Shown here: positions 23,392 through 35,637 of the stretch, piece after piece
How positions within the stretch are numbered: position 1 is the first letter of the stretch
Layout of the letters: every line of letters begins with the position of its first letter
DNA from: Rhodanobacteraceae bacterium
GTDB taxonomy: Bacteria > Pseudomonadota > Gammaproteobacteria > Xanthomonadales > Rhodanobacteraceae
DNA length: 35,637 nucleotides
NCBI GenBank assembly: GCA_003142815.1
Contig: PLNP01000033.1
Location: forward strand, 1 to 35,637
Reading direction: 5' to 3'
Notes under the pieces: model-generated
Seen by the model: only the letters and a program-made list of their open reading frames with translations
Told to the model about the DNA's origin: nothing
The model's database searches: none
Program-made: the position numbers and the translations under genes

Positions 23392-23540
23392 GTGCAAAAG
23401 GGCACGAGGGGCAGTGCGGCCGATCCACTGCAGCGCTTCGGCAACGCGCTTGAGCGCATTCCCGCCGCGCTGCGCAAAATCCTGACCTACGATAAGGGCA
23501 AGGAGATAAGCTACGACGCCGCGTTGACGTTGTGCACCGC
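23392..23540 (+). mobile_element. Transposase relic resembling IS30 family
   Basis: The plus-strand frame contains LQRFGNALERIPAALRKILT followed by YDKGKEIS, similar to the IS30 transposase core around the second catalytic aspartate (typically ...LPAPLRKTLTYDRGKEM). Only about 35-40 residues are recognisable. Upstream frames are broken by stops, and the frame then runs into the end of the GGDEF-EAL pseudogene. A stretch at 23310-23340 may be an element end, but I cannot confirm this. It marks an old insertion at the boundary between the two compositional parts. Confidence 0.5.
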
Positions 23541-25152
23541 TAGCGCGGCAGCGATTTTTTCTCGCGCAGAAATTCTTCGATTCGCTCTGCCGGAACCGCC
23601 GGGCTGAACAAGTACCCCTGAATCTCGTCGCATTTGAGCAGGCGCAGCAAATTTGCCTGCTCCTCGGTCTCCACCCCTTCTGCAATCACCCGCAGATTCA
23701 GGGAATGCGCCAGGGAAATGATGGTGGAGACGATGCTCAGATCATCGGAGTTGCTGGTCATGTTTATGATGAACGCCCGGTCGATCTTCAAGGCGTTGAC
23801 AGGCAGCTTGGCGATATAGCTGAGCGAGGAGTAGCCGGTGCCGAAGTCGTCGATCGCCACCTCGATGCTCATCTCCTGAACGCCCCGGAGTTTTTGGATA
23901 TTGGCCTCTATGTCTTGCATGATCAGGCTCTCGGTAATTTCAAGTTCCAACTCGACCGCTGTGTTTCCGGCCCCGCTTATCACCTGCGCGACCATGCCGA
24001 CGAAATCTTTCTTTTGTAACTGAATCGGGGAGACATTGACGGCAATCCGGGGAACCCTCAAGCCTTTCGACTGCCACGCCAGGGAATCCGATGCTGCCTT
24101 CGCCAATGCCCAACGGCCCGCCTCGAGAATCATCCCGGTTTCTTCGAGCAAGGGAATGAACCTCATCGGCGGTACGAGACCGGTTTCGGGATCGTTCCAA
24201 CGCAGCAGCGCCTCCAGCCCGCAAATCTGCCCGCTCTTGAGATTGACCTTGGGCTGGTAATGCAGCACCAGCTGTTCCTGCTCCAGCGCCCGGTGCAGCT
24301 TGTTCTCGAGCGTCAGCTTCTCGGCGATCTGTGCATTGAACTCAGGGGCGTAGAACAGGTGCTTGTCGCCGGAAAGCTTGGCCTTTTTCAGCGCCGCCTC
24401 GGCGTTGCGTAAAAGGGTCTCGATGTCCTCCCCGTCGGCGGGATAAGACGATACCCCCGTCCTCGCCGAAACGCGCAGCTCCTGCCCGCCGATCAGGAAC
24501 GGCTGCTTCTGGATCCCGGACAAAACCTTCTCCAAGACATGGGCGATGTCCGCACCTCCATCGTCGTGCAGAGTGGTGATGCCGAAATAATCAGCCGAAA
24601 GACGGGCCAGAATATCTGTTTCATCGAGCTCCTGTTTCAGCAGCCGCGCGATCTGGCGTAACAGACTGTCCCCCGCCTAACGGCCGAGAGATTCATTGAT
24701 GCTTCCGAACCGTTCGAGGTCGAGCATGATTACGGAAAACACTGTCTGGTCACGGTGCGCGGCACCGATCCGCTGCTCGACCCGGTCCTGGAACAGCGCG
24801 CGGTTCGGCAGGCCGGTAATGGCATCGAAATAGGCGAGATAATTGAGCCGCTCTTCCTTTTGGATATGATCCAGTGCGAATGAAATATCGTCGGCCATTT
24901 CGATCAGCAGCCGCATCTCCTCTTCGTCGAAAACATCCGTTTCCGGCGCATAGAGCACGAACACGCCGACCAGCTGGACATCCAGGATAAGGCATCTTGC
25001 AAAGCGCCCGTCTTGAGCAGTATTTCTTGGCGCCGCAATTCCATGACGCCGTCAGGGCCACCCTGCTTTTCGGCAGCGCCATCACCAGAACCGGTTTTCG
25101 GCATAAGATCTTCCGCGGGAACAATCATTGGAATACCTTTTTCAGACATCAT
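23540..25152 (-). pseudogene. GGDEF-EAL protein gene broken by deletion, frame change and amber codon
   Basis: Reading leftward, an ATG at 25152 opens a frame of about 55 codons ending in ILLKTGALQDA, which looks like the lead-in to PAS sensor domains. At about 24,995 this joins, in another frame, the middle of a GAF domain (LILDVQLVGVFVLYAPE), as if the sensory middle had been deleted. GAF then leads into a GGDEF domain. There an in-frame TAG at 24,679-24,677 (SLGR-stop-AGDSLL) interrupts it where relatives have Gln or His. After the stop the frame is open again through a degenerate GGDEF (SADYF) and a complete EAL domain (EALLRW, DDFGTGYSS, AEGVET) to 23,540. The C-terminal half is closely similar to that of the gene at 27035-30376. 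Confidence 0.85.
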
Positions 25153-25544: not shown

Positions 25545-27020
25545 TTACGCCGCGCAAAAAAGAAAGCTGCTCCTTGCCTGCTTGGCGCTGTACATGGCGG
25601 TATCCGCCGCCTTGACCAGCGCGTCCGCGTCCCGTGCGTCTGCCGGATAGATCGCGATTCCGATGCTGGTCCCGATGTTGACGCTCTGCTTCTGACTCCC
25701 GAGTTGGAACGGCGTGGCAAGAGCGGCAATGATTTTCTTGGCCACGGTTACCGCATCCTCGCGCTTAGCGATGTCGGACAGGATCACGGTGAATTCATCG
25801 CCCCCGACGCGGGCCACCGTGTCGGATTCGCGTACCTGGCGCCGGATTCTCGCGGCAACACCTTGCAAGAGCTCGTCGCCGACGGTGTGCCCCAGAGTGT
25901 CGTTCACCGGCTTGAACTTGTCCAGGTCGAGGTACAGCAGCGCGACCCGGCGCGAGTCGCGTTTGGCAAGACTAATCGCCTGATCTAGCCGGTCATTGAA
26001 CAGCAGGCGGTTCGGCAGGCCAGTGAGGCTGTCGTGATGCGCAACACGCTGGATGCGCTCCTCCGTCAGCTTGTATTCCGTAATGTCGGTCGTCACCGCA
26101 AAACAGCCCAAGGACCGCCCTTGGTCTCCGATATGCGGTAGAAGCTTGACCTCGGTGTAGCGGCGCTCGCCGTTTGGAAGCTTGCGCGTCCTTTGGTAAG
26201 TGACCGGATGTCCCTGCAGCACTTGCACAAAATGGCCCTCGATCTCGCGATAGGCTTCTTCCCCGACCACCTCTCGCAGGTGCTTGCCGAGAATGTTCTC
26301 GCCGGTAAAACCGAACAACCCGGCGTACGCCTTGTTGGCGAAGCGGCAACGCAGGTTCTCGTCATAAGAGGCGGTCATGGCCGGAACATTGTCGGCGAAC
26401 AGGCGCAGCTGCTCCGCGCTATCGCGCAAGGCTTCTTCCATCCGCCTGCGCTCGGTGACGTCGCGGATGATTGCGGTAAAGCGCCGCGTGCCCCCGACTC
26501 GGATCTCGGCGACGTTGAGTTCGATCGGAAATTCGATCCCGCCCTTGCGCAGCGCAGAGAGCTCCTGAGCTCGCCCGATAACCCGGGCTTCCCCGGTGCG
26601 AATGTAACGCGCCAGATAGTTGTTGTGCTCGCCGGCGTGCGAGTCAGGCATCAGGATTCTTACATTTTTCCCCACCACTTCCCCAGCTTGGTAAGCGAAT
26701 GTGCGTTCGGCGGCGCGGTTAAAAGATTCAATGACGCCGCGCTCGCTGACCGTAACGATCCCCTCTACCGCGGTATCCATCACAGCGTTGGCTTGGGCGG
26801 TTTCGCTGAGCAAGGCGAATCTGAGCGGCTGCATGAAAAGCCACCACACGAATATGGACGTGATGGCGGTAAGCAGGCCCGCATCGATGGTTGCGCCTAC
26901 CCAGATCGGGGTGCCCTTCGGCAAAAGGTCATCCAGTGCAAACATCATCGCCCCCTCGATGCAGAAGATCAGCACCAGAAGCGTGGCAAAGAGGCGGATC
27001 GGCGAAAATTGTTCCGGCAT
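25545..27020 (-). CDS. Membrane PAS-PAS-GGDEF diguanylate cyclase
   Basis: 491-residue protein. Two N-terminal hydrophobic helices (about residues 4-25 and 40-62) anchor it. Then come a PAS domain with FixL-like motifs (ILMPDSHAGEHNNYLARYIR), a second PAS (about 190-310) and a GGDEF domain. The catalytic motif RVGGDEF is intact and is preceded by RESD five residues before GGDEF, the product-inhibition I-site, so it should make c-di-GMP from GTP. The C-terminus ends abruptly after ADTAMYSAKQA with SSFLFCAA, a little short of the usual end, so a lost EAL domain or tail is possible. ATG 27020 is preferred; a TTG at 27038 would overlap the upstream stop by 4 nt. Confidence 0.88.
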   Translation of the reverse strand: MPEQFSPIRLFATLLVLIFCIEGAMMFALDDLLPKGTPIWVGATIDAGLLTAITSIFVWWLFMQPLRFALLSETAQANAVMDTAVEGIVTVSERGVIESFNRAAERTFAYQAGEVVGKNVRILMPDSHAGEHNNYLARYIRTGEARVIGRAQELSALRKGGIEFPIELNVAEIRVGGTRRFTAIIRDVTERRRMEEALRDSAEQLRLFADNVPAMTASYDENLRCRFANKAYAGLFGFTGENILGKHLREVVGEEAYREIEGHFVQVLQGHPVTYQRTRKLPNGERRYTEVKLLPHIGDQGRSLGCFAVTTDITEYKLTEERIQRVAHHDSLTGLPNRLLFNDRLDQAISLAKRDSRRVALLYLDLDKFKPVNDTLGHTVGDELLQGVAARIRRQVRESDTVARVGGDEFTVILSDIAKREDAVTVAKKIIAALATPFQLGSQKQSVNIGTSIGIAIYPADARDADALVKAADTAMYSAKQARSSFLFCAA

Positions 27021-27034
27021 GGTTGTGCTGGCCG

Positions 27035-30000
27035 TCAATTCGGTGACTTGGGTGGCGACTTGTTCTCTTGCAGGAGAATCTCGATCTCCTCCACCGGAAC
27101 CGCGGGACTGAACAGGTACCCCTGAAACTCATCGCACTTGAGCAACCGCAGCAGATTCGCCTGTTCTTCGGTCTCCACGCCTTCCGCGACGACCTTCAGT
27201 CCCAGCGAATGCCCAAGCGAGATGATGGTGGACACGATGCTAAGGTCATCCGGGTTGCTGGTCATGTTCATAATGAACGCGCGGTCGATTTTCAAGGTAT
27301 TGATCGGCAACCGGCTGATGTAGCTGAGCGAGGAGTAGCCGGTGCCGAAATCATCGACTGCAATCTCCACCTCCATATCGCGGACCGCCCGGAGTTTCCG
27401 GATGTTGGTATCGATATCCTGCATGATCAGGCTCTCGGTAATCTCCAGCTCCAGAATGCCGCCTACTTCCTTGGCGCCGCGCAGCGCGCCCTCCACCGTG
27501 GCGACGAAATCCTTCTGCCGCAGTTGGATCGGCGAGACGTTTACCGCGATCCGCGGAACCGGCAGACGCTTGCCCTTCCAGCGCGCGGAATCCGCAATGG
27601 CCTGTTGCAGCGCCCAGCGGCCCGCCTCGAGAATGAGCCCGGTTTCCTCCAGGATGGGGATGAACTTGATCGGCGGCACGAGGAGGCCGGTATCGGGATC
27701 GTTCCAGCGCATCAACGCCTCAAGTCCGCTGATGCGTCGCTTCTTGAGTTCGACTTTCGGCTGGTAGTGCAGCACCAGTTCACCCCGCTCCACCGCGCGG
27801 CGCATTTTGTTTTCCAGCGCCAGCTTCTCGGCCACCCGGGCGCTGAACTCAGGCGCATAGAATAAATATTTGTCCCCGGATAGCTTGGCTTTTCCGAGCG
27901 CCGCCTCGGCGTTGCGCGACAGCGTATTGGCATCCTTGCCATCGTGAGGAAAGATCGCCACCCCTGCCTTCGCCGCAACGCGCAGCTCCTGGCCCTCGAT
28001 CTCGAACGGCTGCCCATGGATGCATGACAGAACCTGCTCCAGGATATGCCCTACGCTGCCGTCGTCGTCGTAGCTCCACGTGACAATCGCAAACGAATCT
28101 GCGCCGAGGCGGGCCAGAATGTCGGATTCATCGAGCCCGTCTTTCAGGCGTCGCGCGACCTGGCGCAACAGCTCGTCTCCGGCATGCTGCCCCAACGTTT
28201 CATTGACGCTTCTGAACCTCTCTAGATTCAATATGACGACCGCAAAGCTCTTCTGTTCGCCGCGTGCCACGGCTACTTTCTGCTCCAAACGTTCGTGAAG
28301 CAGGCTGCGATTCGGCAGCTCGGTCAGAGCGTCGTAGTAAGCGAGGTAGTTGATCCGATCCTTTTTTTCGAGGTGATCGAGCGCGAACGAAATGTCACCG
28401 GCAAGCTCGGTGAGCAGCCTCATCTCCTCCGTGTCAAAGACACCAGCCTCCGACGCGTAGAGCAGCAGCAGCCCCATCACCTTGTCTTCCAGTTTCAGCG
28501 GGAACACGACCACTGACCGGTAGCCGCGCCGCAGCGCCTCCTCGCGCCAGCGCGCCATCTGCGGATCGGTGTCGATATCGTTGCAGACCACGGCCGTCTT
28601 TTCGCGCAACGCCCGCGCCACCATCTCGCAGCGGTCGGGCGCGTCATCCCTGGCCGTCAGTTGGATATTGTCGAGGTAGCCTTCGTCGACGCCCGCCCCG
28701 GCCACGGGCGTCACGTCAAGGCCATTGGCATCAAGCAGGCCGATCCAGGCCAATCTGAACCGCCCCTCTTCCACCGCGATCCGGCAGGCTTCGTTGAACA
28801 GTTCCTGCCGGTTTTCGGTCCGGACGATGGTCATGTTGATGCCGCTCAGAACGGCATACATGCGGTTCTGGCGGGTGATGCGTTTTTCGTGCTCCATTTG
28901 CAGCGTGATGTCGCGCGCGATGGTGGACAGGTACTCCACCGATCCGTCGGATCCCTTGTGCGCAATGATCACTTGAGAAATGGGGATTTCGCGACCGTCA
29001 CGCCCAAGAAGTGCCGTTTCCCCGCTCCAGGTTCCGTGCTCGATGGCGTGGGGAATCCCCGTCTCCGCCACCAACTTCGCCGCCCAATCCGGATGGGTGT
29101 CGAGAAAACGTACCGTAGACACGTCCAGCCCCGGCTCGAACCCGAGCATGCGCAGTCCCGCCCGGTTGAAGTAGAGGACTTGGCCAATGGGGTCACCCGT
29201 GGCTACCATATCCGGCGTCGCCTCGATGATCGCCACCAGCCGCGCCTGGTCTTTTTCAATCCGCTTTCTTTCCACGATCTCCGCTTCGAGCGCAGCGGTT
29301 CTCTCCTGCACCAACAACTCCAGATGTTCGTGCAGATGCGCCCGCTCCAGCGCCACCGCCACCTGGTTGCCCACGCTGTACAGGACTTTCAGTTCGTCCT
29401 CATTGAACAGTCCCTTTTCCGGCCCGACCAGATTCATCATGCCCAGCGTCCGGCCATCGATCCACAGCGGAACGCTGGCGTGGTAGCGCAGCCCGCGCGT
29501 GTCGCCTTTTGCCTTGCCGAGGCGTTCGCACTCCAGGATGTTGGATACGTGGTCGAGCTCGCCGGAGATAAGGCGGCGACGGCACATGCAATCGCCCTCC
29601 ATGGCGCCGGCGGCCTCGAGTGCTGGCGGCAGGTTGCGCGCGGCGGCGAGCCGGAAGCCGGACTCACCTTCCCGCAGAAAAATCCAGCCGGCCTGGATGC
29701 CGGGCAGTTCAAGCGCCCGCTCCAGAGCCAACTCCACCACCTCCCGTTCGCTGGCCGCGTGATTGAGGCCGTCGGCGATGCGGTACAGGCCATTGAGCAC
29801 CTGGTTTGAATGCGCCAACTCCTTTTCCCGCAGCTTGAGCTCGCTGTTGATCTCGACCGCCTGCTCGTAGGTCGAGATCAGGAGATCGAGAATCTGCTGC
29901 CGCTCCGAACTGATGAAATACTTCTGACCTCCGAGGCCCATCTCTATGCCGATCTGCATCTTCTGGTTTTTGCGCAGCTCGAGGTTCATCCGCAGCTGGT

Positions 30001-30376
30001 CGATGCGCGACAGCAGGTAGCGCTCGTCGTACGGTTTGCGCAGGAAATTGTCCGCGCCGCACTCCAGCCCGCGGATCACGTCCTTCGGATCGGAGAGCGT
30101 GGTCACCAGCATGACCGGGGTGCCCTTCAGTTTCTTGTCGGTCTTGATCGCCTTGCACAGGCCGTAGCCGTCCATTTCGGGCATGATCACGTCGCTGATG
30201 ATGAGCGTGGGCTTGCTCTGTCGGGCGGCTTCGAGCGCCTGGCGACCGTTGGTGGTCACGGTGACGTGGTAGCCCTGCTGTTGGAGAATATGCTGGAGGC
30301 GCTGGGCCTGCGTGGGGCTGTCTTCCGCGATCAGGATTTTCACGGGTAAATTGGACGGTTGCGTACGTGTGCCCAT
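27035..30376 (-). CDS. Response regulator REC-GAF-PAS-GAF-GGDEF-EAL, likely c-di-GMP phosphodiesterase
   Basis: 1,113-residue signalling protein. REC at residues about 13-130 has the phosphoacceptor D62 (IISDVIMPEMDG). A GAF (about 190-350), a PAS (about 380-500) and a second GAF (about 510-670) follow. The GGDEF domain carries GADSF in place of GGDEF, so it is probably catalytically dead. The EAL domain keeps EALMRW, NVSPIQL, ELEITES, DDFGTGYSS, KIDRAF and AEGVET, all the usual phosphodiesterase residues, so c-di-GMP hydrolysis is the expected output. The start ATG 30376 has GAGGA about 9 bases upstream and is 4 nt after the cheB stop; a start at 30400 would overlap cheB. It is probably phosphorylated by the CheA homologue upstream. 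Confidence 0.93.
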   Translation of the reverse strand: MGTRTQPSNLPVKILIAEDSPTQAQRLQHILQQQGYHVTVTTNGRQALEAARQSKPTLIISDVIMPEMDGYGLCKAIKTDKKLKGTPVMLVTTLSDPKDVIRGLECGADNFLRKPYDERYLLSRIDQLRMNLELRKNQKMQIGIEMGLGGQKYFISSERQQILDLLISTYEQAVEINSELKLREKELAHSNQVLNGLYRIADGLNHAASEREVVELALERALELPGIQAGWIFLREGESGFRLAAARNLPPALEAAGAMEGDCMCRRRLISGELDHVSNILECERLGKAKGDTRGLRYHASVPLWIDGRTLGMMNLVGPEKGLFNEDELKVLYSVGNQVAVALERAHLHEHLELLVQERTAALEAEIVERKRIEKDQARLVAIIEATPDMVATGDPIGQVLYFNRAGLRMLGFEPGLDVSTVRFLDTHPDWAAKLVAETGIPHAIEHGTWSGETALLGRDGREIPISQVIIAHKGSDGSVEYLSTIARDITLQMEHEKRITRQNRMYAVLSGINMTIVRTENRQELFNEACRIAVEEGRFRLAWIGLLDANGLDVTPVAGAGVDEGYLDNIQLTARDDAPDRCEMVARALREKTAVVCNDIDTDPQMARWREEALRRGYRSVVVFPLKLEDKVMGLLLLYASEAGVFDTEEMRLLTELAGDISFALDHLEKKDRINYLAYYDALTELPNRSLLHERLEQKVAVARGEQKSFAVVILNLERFRSVNETLGQHAGDELLRQVARRLKDGLDESDILARLGADSFAIVTWSYDDDGSVGHILEQVLSCIHGQPFEIEGQELRVAAKAGVAIFPHDGKDANTLSRNAEAALGKAKLSGDKYLFYAPEFSARVAEKLALENKMRRAVERGELVLHYQPKVELKKRRISGLEALMRWNDPDTGLLVPPIKFIPILEETGLILEAGRWALQQAIADSARWKGKRLPVPRIAVNVSPIQLRQKDFVATVEGALRGAKEVGGILELEITESLIMQDIDTNIRKLRAVRDMEVEIAVDDFGTGYSSLSYISRLPINTLKIDRAFIMNMTSNPDDLSIVSTIISLGHSLGLKVVAEGVETEEQANLLRLLKCDEFQGYLFSPAVPVEEIEILLQENKSPPKSPN

Positions 30377-30380
30377 GAGT

Positions 30381-31463
30381 TCAGTTCCTCGATATGCCAT
30401 TTCTGTGGTTGACTAGGGCCACCAGCGCAGCGGCGATCTTGTCGGCCGGTAGCACTTGCGTGGCGCCGCCCAGTGCGATGGCTTCGCCCGGCATGCCGTG
30501 CACCACCGAGCTTTCCCGGTCCTGCGCGATCGTGATCGCGCCCTTCTCCCGCATCAGCTTCAATTCGGCCGCGCCATCCTTGCCCATGCCGGTGAGCAAC
30601 ACCCCCAGCGCGTTAGGGCCGTACGCTTCGGCCAGAGAGCGGAACAAGAACGACACCGCCGGCCGCAGGTGATTCTCGGGTTCCTCCCGGGTCAGGACGA
30701 TCGCGCCGCCGGCGCCGATGCCCATGTGGAAATCGTCGGGCGCGAGGTACACGTGGCCCGGCAGCGGGGTAGTCCCGTAGGAAGCGAGGTGAATCTGCAA
30801 GCCGGTGGTTTGGTTCAGCCACTCGGCCATGCCGGCCAGAAATCCGTGCGCAATATGCTGCACGACGAGCACCGGCGCGGGAAAGTCCTTCGGCAGGCCT
30901 GCGAGGATGGTTTGCAGCACCGGCGGTCCGCCGGTGGACGCGCCGATGCCGACCAGTTTGATCTGCGCCGCAGTGCGCTGCCATTGCGCGGCTTGGGTAG
31001 GATGGGGCGAATGCAAAGACGCCGGCCGCGAGTGGACCGTGCGGCGCACAACCTTGACCTCGGACATCAGTTTGACCGTTTCCAGGAGGTGCGCGGCAAT
31101 GGCTTCGAAATCGCTGTGCTCACGGCCGAGAGGCTTCTCGATGCAGGCGATGGCGCCAGCCTCCATCGCCTGGAAAGTGATGACGACGTCCTTGGCCTTG
31201 GCGCTGGCGCTGCAGATGATGATCGGCAGCGGTTGGGTTTCCATGATGCGGCGCGTCGCCTCGAAACCATCCATGCGCGGCATATGGATATCCATCAGCA
31301 CCACGTCGGGCTTGTTCTTAATGACGAAATCGAGCGCGGCCTGGCCGTCGCCGACGGCGCCGATGACACGGATCTGCGGATCCGATTCGAGCAGGTGAAC
31401 GAGGAACATGCGTGTCACCGCCGAGTCCTCCGCCACCAGTACCCTGATCTTGCCGTCGGTCAT
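30381..31463 (-). CDS. cheB: Chemotaxis response regulator / protein-glutamate methylesterase (CheB)
   Basis: 360-residue CheB. An N-terminal REC domain has D58 (VVLMDIHMPRMDG), and a linker rich in Ser and His follows. The C-terminal methylesterase domain has the catalytic triad S176 (GIGASTGGP), H203 (VVQHIAHGF) and D296 (TGMGKDGA). It removes methyl groups from the chemoreceptor and sets adaptation. It lies 15 nt after the cheA stop and just before the c-di-GMP regulator, matching the WspF position in Wsp operons. No CheR gene is in the window; it may lie upstream, beyond the right edge. Confidence 0.95.
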   Translation of the reverse strand: MTDGKIRVLVAEDSAVTRMFLVHLLESDPQIRVIGAVGDGQAALDFVIKNKPDVVLMDIHMPRMDGFEATRRIMETQPLPIIICSASAKAKDVVITFQAMEAGAIACIEKPLGREHSDFEAIAAHLLETVKLMSEVKVVRRTVHSRPASLHSPHPTQAAQWQRTAAQIKLVGIGASTGGPPVLQTILAGLPKDFPAPVLVVQHIAHGFLAGMAEWLNQTTGLQIHLASYGTTPLPGHVYLAPDDFHMGIGAGGAIVLTREEPENHLRPAVSFLFRSLAEAYGPNALGVLLTGMGKDGAAELKLMREKGAITIAQDRESSVVHGMPGEAIALGGATQVLPADKIAAALVALVNHRNGISRN

Positions 31464-31478
31464 GAAAGGTTCGCCCGT

Positions 31479-33731
31479 TTAAATCAACCGCCGCACGGCC
31501 TCGAGCAGATTGCTCTGGTCGAAGCTGCTTTTGACGAGGTAGGCGTTGGCGCCGGCGTCGATGCCGCGCTCGCGGTCCTCCCGCGTTTCCAGCGCCGTCA
31601 CCAGCACCACCGGAAGTTCCGCCAGTTTTTTGTCGGCGCGAATTCTTGCCGTCAGGTCGAAGCCGTTCAGCCGCGGCATTTCCACATCGGAAACAACCAG
31701 GTCGAACTTTTCGGTGCGCAACAGGGTGAATGCCTCCATCCCGTCCACCGCGATTTTCACGTTGTATCCCGCCGACTCCAGGATGCCTTTCAGCAGCATC
31801 CGCGACGTGATCGAATCCTCGGCGACGAGAATGGTCCTGGTTTCGGCTTGTATCGGCACCGCCCCTGCGGCCGCCCGCGCCGGTGTACCGGTAACTTTTC
31901 GGGCGGATTTGAGCAGGTCGGCGACGTTGAGAATCGGCACGACTTGGCCGGAGCCCAGTACCGTAGCGGCGGCGACGTTGCGCACGCGTGACAGGGGCTT
32001 CACCAGCGGCTTGACCAGCACCTCCCGTTCGTCCAGAACGGCGTCCACCGCGAACGCAATGCGTTGCTCGCCGCTGCCGAGAACGATCACCGGTGCGCCT
32101 GCGCGAGGCGTGGCTTGCCGCTCCACCGACGGCAATTCCAGGGCGTCGGCCAGTTGCACCATGGATACGGCGCGTCCGTCAAACGAGAGGGTCTCGCGAC
32201 CTTCGACGGTTCGAATGTCGTCGGACCTGGCGCGCGCCACGCGCTCGACCTGGGCGGTCGGCACCACCAACAGCCGCCCGGCCGCTTCGACCAGGATGCC
32301 GCGAAACGTTGCCCGCGTCGCGGGCATGACGATGCAGAAAGCGGTTCCCAGGCCCGGTCGGCTCTCGACCGAGACTTCCCCACCCAGCTTTTCGGCTTTT
32401 TCCCGCACGATCGCCAGTCCCAGCCCGCGGCCGGACAGTTGCGTGATGATCGGACTGGTAGACACTTCGGACTGGAAAATCAACGCCTGCGCCTCGGACT
32501 CGTCGAGCCGGGCTGCCTCCTCTGCTGAGATCAGGCCGTTCTTGACTGCCGATGCTTTCAGCTTGCCGGTGTCGATGCCTCCGCCGTCGTCGGACACAAT
32601 CAGCCGCACTTTGTTGCCGCTAATTTGAGACACCGCAAGCGTGATCGTGGCCCGGGGCAGCTTGCCGCGCTGGGTGCGCTCGCCGTGGGATTCGATGCCG
32701 TGATCGACGCAGTTGCGCAGCAGGTGAATGAGCGGGTCCTTCATCTCCTCCAGAATGCGTTTGTCGATCTCGATCTCGTCGCCCTGAATCGTGAGGTCGG
32801 CTTCCTTGCCCTGGTCCCGGGAGAGATCGCGGACCAGTTTCGGGAACGATGCCGAAATCGTGGCAAACGGCAGCAGCAGCAGTTTTTTCGAATGCTCGAG
32901 CAGATCGTCTGCCAGCTTGCCGATGGCATAGTGGTCGTGTTCCGCTGTCCGGGTGAGCGCCGCGACTTTGCTCTCAAGTGATTTGAAATGGTCGAGGTTC
33001 CAATCGAGAAACTCCACCAGTTGGGCCAGGCCCGGGGGCTGGTCGGCGCGGTCGGGCGCCGGCCGATCAATCGCTTGGCGAAGTGCGCGCGCTTGCGGTT
33101 CAATCGCCGCCCATTCGTTTCTCCACGGCTCGAAGCAGTGCGCCAGTTCACGCAAGTCTTCCACGCGCTGGCCGGTGGTCAGTTTCACGGTGAGCATCTC
33201 CTCCGCTTCCACCAACCGCGCATCCAGTCCGGCGACGGCGATACGCACGGTTTCTTCGGAGGGAAAGTCCTTTTGCTCCGTGACCGGCGCCGGCGGAACA
33301 ACTTCCGCTGACGCGGGCAGAGAGACTTCCGGGTACCGGACCGGCTGATCAAACGACGACCGGGCGGCAGGCGCGGGTGCGCCGCGTGTAGCCTCCGGTG
33401 TGGACATCACGGCTGTAATGGCATCGAGCGCGCGGTGCAGCGTGTCGAACACGGTGAGCGATGGGGCGCTTTCCTGCCGCTTCCAGCCAGCGAACACGTC
33501 TTCCAGGAACTGGCACAGCGACTCGATCTGGGTGAAATCCACCGCACGCGCGGCGCCCTTCAAACTGTGCGCGGCGCGGAACACCGTCTCCACGATCTTG
33601 CTTTGTGCTTCAGGCGCAGGCGTTTGCTCCAGTTTCAGCAAACCCGCCGCGATCGCCTGCAAATGCTCAGCGGCCTCGACCTTGAAGGTCGCCCGGAGCT
33701 GTTTAAGGAATTCGTCTTTCTTGATGCTCAT
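31479..33731 (-). CDS. cheA: Hybrid chemotaxis histidine kinase CheA with C-terminal receiver
   Basis: 750-residue CheA-type kinase. The Hpt domain (residues 1-110) carries H55 in AAHSLKGAARAV. The central dimerisation/ATPase part has LIHLLRNCVDHGIE (N box), SDDGGGID (G1) and RGLGLAIV (G2). A CheW-like domain follows (about 470-600). The C-terminal receiver (about 625-750) has its aspartate in LVVSDVEMPRLNG. No P2 domain for CheY is seen. The attached receiver is the layout of WspE and FrzE rather than of flagellar CheA, which suggests an output other than the flagellar motor. It lies 14 nt after the chemoreceptor gene. Confidence 0.95.
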   Translation of the reverse strand: MSIKKDEFLKQLRATFKVEAAEHLQAIAAGLLKLEQTPAPEAQSKIVETVFRAAHSLKGAARAVDFTQIESLCQFLEDVFAGWKRQESAPSLTVFDTLHRALDAITAVMSTPEATRGAPAPAARSSFDQPVRYPEVSLPASAEVVPPAPVTEQKDFPSEETVRIAVAGLDARLVEAEEMLTVKLTTGQRVEDLRELAHCFEPWRNEWAAIEPQARALRQAIDRPAPDRADQPPGLAQLVEFLDWNLDHFKSLESKVAALTRTAEHDHYAIGKLADDLLEHSKKLLLLPFATISASFPKLVRDLSRDQGKEADLTIQGDEIEIDKRILEEMKDPLIHLLRNCVDHGIESHGERTQRGKLPRATITLAVSQISGNKVRLIVSDDGGGIDTGKLKASAVKNGLISAEEAARLDESEAQALIFQSEVSTSPIITQLSGRGLGLAIVREKAEKLGGEVSVESRPGLGTAFCIVMPATRATFRGILVEAAGRLLVVPTAQVERVARARSDDIRTVEGRETLSFDGRAVSMVQLADALELPSVERQATPRAGAPVIVLGSGEQRIAFAVDAVLDEREVLVKPLVKPLSRVRNVAAATVLGSGQVVPILNVADLLKSARKVTGTPARAAAGAVPIQAETRTILVAEDSITSRMLLKGILESAGYNVKIAVDGMEAFTLLRTEKFDLVVSDVEMPRLNGFDLTARIRADKKLAELPVVLVTALETREDRERGIDAGANAYLVKSSFDQSNLLEAVRRLI

Positions 33732-33745
33732 CGCGAATTCGCTCT

Positions 33746-35473
33746 CTAGACCCTGTAGCGTTCGACCATTTGCTTGAGTTGCTGTCCGAGTTCATTCAGG
33801 TTGCGCGCCGCGGTTTCCAGCTGTTTAGCGCCCGCCACGTTCTGGGTGCTCGCCTGCTTGATGCTCTCCATCGCGCCGGCGACCTGATCCACCCCCACCA
33901 ACTGCTGCTGACTCGACGCTGCAATCTGTGTCGCCGCCTGCGCCGCCTCGTTGACGCTGCCGGCCAGCGCCTGGATCGAACCGCCCGCCACTTCGGTCTG
34001 GCGGGTTCCGGCTTCCACCGCCTTGCCGCCTTCTTCGGTCGCCATCACTGCGGCGCCGGTGGCCTTCTGAATGTCGCCCAGGATGGTGCGCACCTGGTTG
34101 GTCGCCTGCCGCGATTGCTCGGCCAGGCTCTTGACTTCCTGCGCCACCACGCCGAAGCCCTTGCCGTGCTCGCCCGCCTTGGCCGCCTCGATCGCGGCGT
34201 TGACGGCCAGCAGGTTCGACTGCGTGGCGAGATCTTCCACCGTGGCGACGATCTGGCCGATGGCCTGGCTTTGCTCGGAGAGCCGCACCATGCTCGCGGC
34301 AATCGCTTCCATCTGCTGGCGGATGCGGTTCATGCCCGCGGCAACGTCCTCGGTGGACTTGCGCCCGCTCAAGGAAATCTGCGCCGCCTTCTGTGCGCTG
34401 TCGGAGACCAGTTTGGCCTTCTGGCTCGCCACCTGCGCCGTCTGCCGCACTTCTTCCACCGTGGTGGTGGTCTCGGTCACGGCCGCGGCGGACTCGCTGG
34501 CACTGGCGGCAAGCTGGGCGGTCGATGCGACGATCTCGCTCGCGGCCGAGCCCAGCACATTCGCTCCTTCAATAAGCCCGCGAATCTGCTCGCGCAGATT
34601 ATCGGACATGCGCGCGAAGGCGTTGCCCAGGACATCGTCTGGAGATTGGGGTTTGATGGTCGAGCGTAAATCTCCGGCGGCCATTTCCTCGGCGGCTCCG
34701 GCCATCGCGCGAAGAGACTGGGTCATGCGGTCGAATGTCCGCGCCAGCACTCCCACTTCGTCGCTCCGCGTATTGGTCTGAACGTTGACGCTCAGATCAC
34801 CGACGGTGATCCGTTCGGCCACGGCCGTAAGTTCCTGGAGCGGCCGGGAGATGTTGCGTGTGATGACGAATCCGGCCAGTGTTCCGAGCACCAAAGCGCC
34901 GAACGTACCAAGGAGGATGGTCCATTTCGCGTTTTCGGCATTGGCCTGCGCGGCCTCCACACGTTGCTTGAGCAGAGCGCTCTCTTCGTTCTGCATCTCG
35001 CCCACGACCTTGTGGATTTCGTCCATGAGCGCCTTGCCCCCGCCGGTCTTGGTGAACTGAACGACCGCGTCCAGCCCCTTGGTCCGGCGAACGTCAATGT
35101 TTTCCTTGGCAACAGTGAGCCGGTTCTTGACCAGCGGCTCCAGCGCGTCGAGGCGACGCTGCTGACGCGGGTTATCCCCGGTCAGTTTCCGAACCTCCTG
35201 GATGGTTGGGTCAATTTTGCCCAACGCGGTTTGATACGGCTCCAGGTAACTCTCCTCGCCGGTGAGCGCGTAGCCGCGCTGGCCGATTTCGACATCCTGC
35301 AGCAGCGAGAGCGTCTCCTCGAACCGCCCCAGCACTTCGTAGGTGTTTTTGCGGGAATCCGACGCTGCGATGAGTTGGGTCGTGCCGCGGTAGGAAACCA
35401 CCCCGACGATGACAAAAATCGCCAGAGCCAGGCCGAAGCCGATAGCGATCTTGGTTCCCACATTCCATTTCAT
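33746..35473 (-). CDS. Methyl-accepting chemoreceptor with CHASE3-like sensor
   Basis: 575-residue receptor. TM1 lies at about residues 8-28. A helical extracytoplasmic domain of about 150 residues has the CHASE3 signature [22 protein letters not shown]2 is at about 184-205. HAMP and a second HAMP-like segment (about 206-300) follow, then a long signalling hairpin with the conserved tip [28 protein letters not shown] (given in pieces: E-D-L-A-T-Q-S-N, then [15 protein letters not shown]). The C-terminus ends VERYRV with no CheR-docking pentapeptide. CHASE3 ligands are generally unknown. It is coupled with cheW 28 nt upstream and cheA downstream. Confidence 0.94.
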
Positions 35474-35501
35474 GGCGTAGATCTCCGCTGCTTGTTGGTG
35501 T

Positions 35502-35637
35502 TCAACTTTCCACTTCCTCGTGCACGATTATTTTCGTGTCCGCCAGGATGCGATCCAGGTCGAGCACCACGAGGCGTTCGGCCGTCACGCCTTTCAGGTA
35601 GTCGGCTCGGATGCCGGTGAGGGTCGGCAGCGAGGGC
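35502..35637 (-). CDS. cheW: CheW-like coupling protein, C-terminal part (partial)
   Basis: Reading leftward from the window edge, the last 44 codons give [20 protein letters not shown], then [13 protein letters not shown], then [10 protein letters not shown] and a TGA at 35504-35502. This matches the C-terminal fold of CheW (…G…ERLVVLLDLDRIL). The start lies beyond the window. CheW links receptor and CheA in the array. It lies 28 nt before the receptor start, so it belongs to the same operon. Confidence 0.85.

Follow-up and report, generated by a model that had tools for sequence, protein, structure and literature searches.

A 35,637-nucleotide stretch of a Rhodanobacteraceae bacterium genome (assembly GCA_003142815.1, contig PLNP01000033.1, positions 1 to 35,637; hereafter the window) carries a chemosensory operon in which the gene behind CheB, the output gene, encodes a receiver (REC) domain at the head of a protein with a degenerate GGDEF and a complete EAL domain. 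Our analysis indicates that this is probably a non-flagellar operon of the ACF type whose kinase output was replaced through recombination within the receiver, leaving a response regulator for which we predict phosphodiesterase activity and phosphotransfer from CheA. The best reading of the comparisons below is a pathway rewired from a kinase to a phosphodiesterase with the kinase-facing half of the receiver kept and, we infer, recognition of the partner kept with it. It is a standing question how signaling pathways can switch outputs and still recognize their partners. The operons compared here have core genes with 78-90% DNA identity but different outputs behind them, and in one of them the join runs through the receiver of the output gene. 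Both parent types survive in sister operons, making the idea of a preserved, partner-recognizing half directly testable.

The output gene is joined inside its receiver

In a tree of 36 CheA sequences, the window fell with the loci L051, L052, L053 and L056 (support 99/97; relatives are given by locus, L, or genome, G), followed by L073 and L054, all of which have kinase outputs. A first CheA tree had been built without L057, L064 and L068, which are partial or broken, and the tree of 36 additionally leaves out L060, L062, L072, L081 and L083, which are distant or form long branches. The sister operons, among them L051 and L052 from metagenome-assembled genomes (MAGs), share with the window the same core genes and an output gene that starts with the same ~76 codons. 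Their output is a receiver-linker-histidine kinase, whereas that of the window is of the dead-GGDEF/EAL kind.

At the DNA level, L051, whose CheA is 86% identical to that of the window, matches positions 35336-30012 at 90.0% and has no further match in its 14-kb locus, and the matches of L052 (82.0%) and L053 (78.5%) stop at the same place. In successive 20-codon bins of the output gene up to codon 76, identity is 75/92/92/87% for L052 and 93/87/75/77% for L051. In the first bin after codon 76 it is 52% and 62%, respectively, versus 85% for L065b and 80% for L055. A maximum chi-square test for a break gave 0/2000 permutations as extreme in all eight parent pairs, five of which place the break at nt 226-240 of the gene (codons 76-80, positions 30175-30161); with L051 as the query, a control, the p values were 0.46 and 0.27. 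Trees of the half-receivers, built from 29 receivers scoring >100 bits, point the same way. In the N-half tree (60 columns), the window groups with seven CheA sisters (95/87), and a clade of the window with L065b, L055 and L066 is disfavored by the approximately unbiased (AU) test (p 0.036); for the C-half plus linker (128 columns), grouping with the sisters is rejected (AU p 0.003). Single residues mark the two sides as well. The alpha1 letters TQAQ occur in 8/8 receivers of the native clade, the window included, and in 0/21 others, and directly ahead of KPY the seven sisters have L, whereas the window shares R with most of the incoming family. Together, the identity bins, break test and trees indicate that the output gene is a recombinant, with codons 1 to ~76 native to the operon and the rest derived from another receiver family. 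An AlphaFold2 model (seven sequences; mean predicted local distance difference test score, pLDDT, 80.7) assigns residues 66-70 to beta3, 71-77 to the beta3-alpha3 loop and 78-87 to alpha3. In this predicted fold the break thus falls past Asp70, within the beta3-alpha3 loop or immediately behind it.

Further along the output gene, codons 391-690 resemble a 1168-aa paralogue encoded on the same contig, the longest exact match between the two genes being 94 bp. This is probably the mark of a second, more recent exchange. Relocation of the native kinase to another place in this genome was also considered and rejected, as the L051 kinase module finds at most 41% identity there.

Several observations weigh against so simple a history. 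In the other three of the eight parent pairs the break falls at codons 58, 65 and 128, and the groups compared by the AU test were picked after the first trees had been seen. Past the break, residues 97-116 are 83% identical to L051 and 85% to L056 versus 88% to L065b, and the L051 blast alignment runs on for about 150 bp. Ahead of the break, L051 reaches only 73% over codons 31-60 where L052 reaches 92%, which suggests a history more complex than two parents. GC content at third codon positions (GC3) has no step at the break; base composition therefore counts neither way, and we dropped it as a mark of the insert. The assembly join at the end of the window, discussed below, is doubtful. Lastly, the beta5-alpha5 loop lies on the incoming side. 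In the OmpR work cited, partner choice is attributed mainly to alpha1 and, with the greatest weight, to the beta5-alpha5 loop (PMC2991266). That the kept half fits the resident CheA is nevertheless plausible, because alpha1 is native and the incoming loop has the letters KPYDERYLL, the same as in L054 of the native clade.

The output has the residues of a phosphodiesterase

The output looks like a phosphodiesterase and not like a cyclase. In alignments its GGDEF motif reads GADSF and the first metal Asp is replaced by Asn, leaving it with neither the GG(D/E)EF nor the metal Asp of an active diguanylate cyclase. The EAL domain aligns over its full length with that of MorA, a solved structure, and retains all eight of the residues E, N, E, D, D, K, E and Q, which we take to be the EAL signature. 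In the EAL of PA3825, the metal ligands reported are E, N, D and D (PMC5301497). The next gene has an intact GGDEF with an RxxD motif (RESD) five residues ahead of it and a hydrophobic N-terminus. Both halves of what an initial annotation of the window had proposed here, a dead GGDEF (GADSF) beside a complete EAL and an intact cyclase behind it, are upheld by these alignments.

Searching 369 genomes of the class with the output protein returned 20 loci in 15 genomes. Counting that of the window, 16 distinct genes among them have a GGDEF that could be aligned. It is dead (no Glu at motif position 4) in 16/16, and the same 16/16 have all eight EAL residues, although these genes, having been picked by similarity, do not form an independent sample. 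The genome of the window itself has 11 EAL matches. As a control we considered eight EAL places in it, excluding the window gene, a broken copy beside the operon and the 1168-aa paralogue. Three of the eight have GGDEF, SGDEF or AGDEF beside a complete EAL, which argues that the deadness of the GGDEF is no alignment artefact; the remaining five comprise one GADHF, two without an aligned GGDEF and two with a damaged or poorly aligned EAL. Two more dead-GGDEF (GADHF) EAL genes in this genome, at L008:6731-10237 and L085, have exact shared stretches of at most 115 bp, and the frame of L085 reaches an N close to the end of its EAL.

In none of the other four dead-GGDEF/EAL operons is the output followed by a PAS-GGDEF gene, as judged by query-like domains within 3.5 kb. 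We therefore rejected the cyclase as a conserved partner of this kind of output.

The operon is probably of the ACF type

The initial annotation had described a Wsp plan whose cyclase had turned into a phosphodiesterase. Domain searches bear out its list of parts, namely a receptor, CheA with an attached receiver, CheB and a REC-headed protein of cyclic di-GMP (c-di-GMP) turnover; the plan itself does not stand. Wsp, like the window operon, has a receptor, two CheWs, CheR-TPR, CheA:REC, CheB and a REC-headed c-di-GMP protein, and 794 Wsp clusters end in WspR (588) or WspH (206) (PMC8552884). The window operon shares the C-terminal receiver on CheA, CheB and CheR-TPR with that plan. It is unlike Wsp in gene order, CheA clade and its phosphodiesterase-type output. 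The CheA tree splits off four same-family Wsp-clade CheAs from the remaining 32, the window among them, with support of 100/100, these Wsp rows having been set by gene plan and by a REC-GGDEF output in 3/4, with no Pseudomonas WspE in the tree. The order of the window operon, CheW-CheR-CheW-MCP-CheA-CheB-output (MCP, methyl-accepting chemotaxis protein), is partly read across a scaffold gap and recurs in L052 and other gap-free relatives. It differs from the receptor-first order of Wsp, followed by CheW, CheR, CheA:REC, CheB and the output: in the four Wsp-clade loci compared the receptor leads the cluster, and in the window it comes after the CheWs. Genomes G040, G066 and G067 each carry a Wsp-clade operon next to one of the window class. 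Nor is the output receiver like that of WspR: with a query made from the window's output receiver, the output receiver of L047 scores 38 bits, and most operons of the window class score at least 150. The output is neither WspR (a REC-GGDEF cyclase) nor WspH, the latter judged without direct comparison. The CheA tree and the gene order rule out Wsp membership, and the comparison with a Wsp cyclase is misleading, because the output replaced in the line of the closest relatives is a receiver-histidine kinase. One Wsp-clade locus, L048 (G050), departs from its own class in that the gene after CheB resembles a receiver-kinase and not WspR.

ACF clusters with CheR-TPR resemble the window operon in having CheR-TPR, CheA, CheB and a multidomain response regulator (PMC3447774). 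The window operon has such a regulator in the cluster and a CheR fused to TPR, the latter encoded past the scaffold gap, and FliM, the one flagellar gene searched, was not found in the whole genome, which is given as 99.99% complete. By these gene features we place the operon in the ACF-type (non-flagellar) class, to which it appears to belong.

A scaffold gap of two Ns (L007:12638-12639) bounds the window on the right, and for this reason the CheW listed by the initial annotation is present in the window with its last 44 residues only. Extending the search to the right, as that annotation had suggested, recovered the remaining CheW sequence, CheR-TPR and a second CheW beyond the gap, with a single-domain receiver beside the second CheW. 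Because of this receiver, the earlier statement that there is no CheY holds inside the window only; its flagellar part agrees with the lack of FliM. We considered a link to CheY or the motor and rejected it, since FliM, the one motor gene searched, was not found even though a single-domain receiver lies upstream past the gap.

Outputs are exchanged across the class

A CheA query found full-length matches of >680 bits in 9/147 genomes of the family, own genome included, and in 0/10 other genomes of the genus, where there were only weaker matches, mostly of ChpA/PilL size. Wider searches gave 11/398 genomes in the order (E <=1e-130), 11/369 in the class (1e-120) and 13/398 in the phylum (1e-120); these samples overlap, and each counts the own genome. 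The named relatives are MAGs from palsa soil and groundwater, Caenimonas soli and a Methylococcaceae MAG. Close kin in the family of one relative (G650), three genomes of which two had a broken or partial CheA, brought no gain.

For 38 operons outside the Wsp clade, which are not a random sample, we determined what follows CheB; the gene could be read in 32. The output was a receiver-histidine kinase in 24, dead-GGDEF/EAL in five (window, L039, L040, L063 and L065), intact GGDEF-EAL in two (L079 and L080) and GGDEF in one (L072), and it was unreadable or lost at a contig end in six. Among the 24 kinases, the contig of L053 ends inside the kinase, and L064 has receiver and kinase in two frames. 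L065 carries two tandem outputs, one of each kind. A REC-linker-GAF-PAS-GAF front is common to L039/L040, where GGDEF-EAL lies behind it, and to L042, L045 and L061, where a kinase does; L043 has the same front before a kinase, with the first GAF undetected. That the same front precedes either effector indicates that outputs are also swapped at the helix after the second GAF. A rough count of six output changes on the CheA tree is not relied upon, L048 having been labelled GGDEF though its output is REC-kinase-like and L075 labelled histidine kinase though its contig ends before the kinase.

Other arrangements occur in the class. In L041, L044 and L046, a separate EAL gene of ~430 aa lies directly 3' of a REC-kinase-REC output, another route by which an EAL is attached. 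In L079 and L080 the output, which seems to have been recruited separately, combines intact GGDEF and EAL with a receiver-like stretch at the C-terminus, and the space from CheW to CheA showed no receptor in either locus. In L078 (G853), CheA stands at the end of a 3496-aa open frame (5385 aa in another listing), apparently as part of a very large fusion.

Receiver-GGDEF-EAL outputs in CheR-TPR clusters are a known kind, since the ACF survey had counted two receivers fused to both domains and one to EAL, beside about 40% fused to kinases and about 20 to GGDEF (PMC3447774). Its section on response regulators gives neither motif integrity nor output origin (PMC3447774); the window output, on our analysis, is a recombinant with a dead GGDEF. 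As far as the open-access literature listings searched show, what is new is the consistent dead-GGDEF/complete-EAL output in the class and the recombination inside the receiver domain, of which we found no description there. In Campylobacterota, one study reports that chemosensory classes rarely mix components (PMC9239204). The nearest functional likeness is CheA-Pch (DipA) of Pseudomonas aeruginosa, in which a chemosensory kinase governs a GAF-PAS-degenerate GGDEF-EAL phosphodiesterase (PMC3861689). Pch is without a receiver, and its authors proposed a receiver adaptor (PMC3861689); in the window the receiver is built in and the gene lies in the operon. The window thus offers a natural receiver fused to a Pch-like GAF-PAS-dead GGDEF-EAL, the kind of link proposed for CheA-Pch (PMC3861689), with the likeness being one of domain make-up.

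A proposed rewiring of the pathway and its alternatives

In the mechanism that we propose, the CHASE3 receptor would control CheA, which would pass phosphate to three receivers: its own at the C-terminus, perhaps a sink, that of CheB and, at Asp70, that of the output protein. The signal would run via a beta-hairpin with a long helix and the GAF-PAS-GAF sensors to the non-catalytic GGDEF and the EAL, and the EAL would lower local c-di-GMP while the neighboring membrane cyclase, from the same operon, makes it. The residues needed for the proposed phosphotransfer steps are present. Recombination within the receiver would have left the N-terminal half, with its acidic pocket, alpha1 and phospho-Asp, to be inherited with the operon, and would have brought in the C-terminal half, linker and effector from another output family, displacing the receiver-histidine kinase. 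Whether such events are general is a more speculative matter: we put forward tentatively, as a possibility rather than an expectation, that recombination inside the receiver, at the conserved stretch past the phospho-Asp, is a recurrent natural way of rewiring chemosensory and other pathways, the window being a recent kinase-to-phosphodiesterase case. If true, keeping the kinase-facing half while bringing in the output-facing half and its effector would yield a working new output in one step.

The alternative that survives best, though it seems to us unlikely, concerns the sense of the control. Phosphorylation could turn the EAL off, or ligands of the GAF and PAS domains and GTP at the dead GGDEF could rule the enzyme, with the receiver merely placing it at the array. 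The sign of control is not readable from the sequence, and two GAF domains and one PAS domain stand between receiver and EAL. In P. aeruginosa, CheA brings Pch to the pole, and the CheA H49N mutation raises c-di-GMP while Pch placement is unchanged (PMC3861689), which fits a placing role; the same data, however, favor activation by phosphorylated CheA (PMC3861689).

Distinctly less probable is that the mosaic arose in assembly, by the joining of two genes or two strains. The contig join 2 bp past the window is indeed poor: the flanks of the gap overlap imperfectly, over 77 bp of the same CheW stretch at 80.5% identity, so the piece to the right may be another allele or copy joined on, although the gene order across the gap is that of L052, which has no gap there. 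The exact stretches shared with the paralogue on the same contig also speak for it. Against this, exact matches to six compared relatives at the receiver break do not exceed 17 bp, less than the usual word length of assemblers; the window contains no N; the output gene departs from the paralogue on either side of the 94-bp stretch; and two other genomes (L039 and L040) each encode the same full architecture in a single frame.

Some GGDEF-EAL proteins act as non-enzymatic receptors, and the EAL of the window could likewise be a c-di-GMP receptor or scaffold. We regard this as very improbable given that all eight signature residues are kept in the window and in its relatives. Weakest of all, and hardly credible, is a Wsp system whose WspR gained an EAL and lost its cyclase, which the shared receptor, CheW, CheR-TPR, CheA:REC, CheB and REC-headed c-di-GMP protein might suggest and against which stand the CheA clade, the gene order, the receiver scores and the two classes side by side in three genomes.

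Features of the window and genomic context

The operon genes, on the minus strand at 25.5-35.6 kb, overlap or are spaced by at most 20 nt, so the MCP, CheA, CheB, output and cyclase genes likely form one co-transcribed operon (Table 1). GC content over 23.5-28.5 kb is 55.5-60.3% in 1-kb windows, below that of the operon core. The broken second dead-GGDEF/EAL copy in this part had been overlooked by the initial annotation.

Table 1. Position and basis of the features described in the window.
Feature	Position	Strand	Basis or remark
C-terminal 44 residues of CheW	about 35502..35636	minus	frame with stop; NN gap just past window
Chemoreceptor CHASE3-HAMP-MCPsignal, 575 aa	33746..35473	minus	domain search
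CheA Hpt-HATPase-CheW-REC, 750 aa	31479..33731	minus	Hpt motif AAHSLKG at residue 53; receiver motif VVSDVEMP at 679
CheB methylesterase, REC-CheB, 360 aa	30381..31463	minus	domain search
Output regulator REC-linker-GAF-PAS-GAF-GGDEF (degenerate)-EAL (complete), 1121 aa	27035..30400	minus	domain search, motif alignments
Putative native part of output gene, codons 1-76 (beta1 to beta3, alpha1, Asp70)	30173..30400	minus	identity bins, break test, trees, predicted fold
Most likely recombination break, nt 226-239 of output gene, beta3-alpha3 loop	30162..30175	minus	5/8 parent pairs; predicted fold
Putative incoming part of output gene, codons 80-1121	27038..30161	minus	identity bins, DNA matches, break test, trees
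PAS-GAF stretch, codons 391-690, like 1168-aa paralogue	28331..29230	minus	83-99% DNA identity (30-codon blocks)
Diguanylate cyclase PAS-PAS-GGDEF, intact GGDEF	25545..27038	minus	start TTG at 27038 or ATG at 27020
Broken copy of GAF-GGDEF (SADYF)-EAL gene	23540..25051	minus	N-terminus missing; in-frame TAG at 24677-24679

The genome encodes two MCPs, one in the window operon and one on contig C26, where there are also CheW domains and a CheA-like frame that, at 2105 aa, is as large as a ChpA/PilL kinase. Beyond the scaffold gap and the second CheW, the contig continues with a NarL-type regulator, a REC-PAS-kinase, more receivers and the 1168-aa paralogue, a REC-PAS-GAF-GGDEF-EAL protein. The part directly upstream of the operon (L007:15148-18730) holds single receivers, the NarL-type regulator and a REC-PAS-HisKA_3 kinase, and single receivers occupy the corresponding upstream place in L054, L056 and L066 as well.

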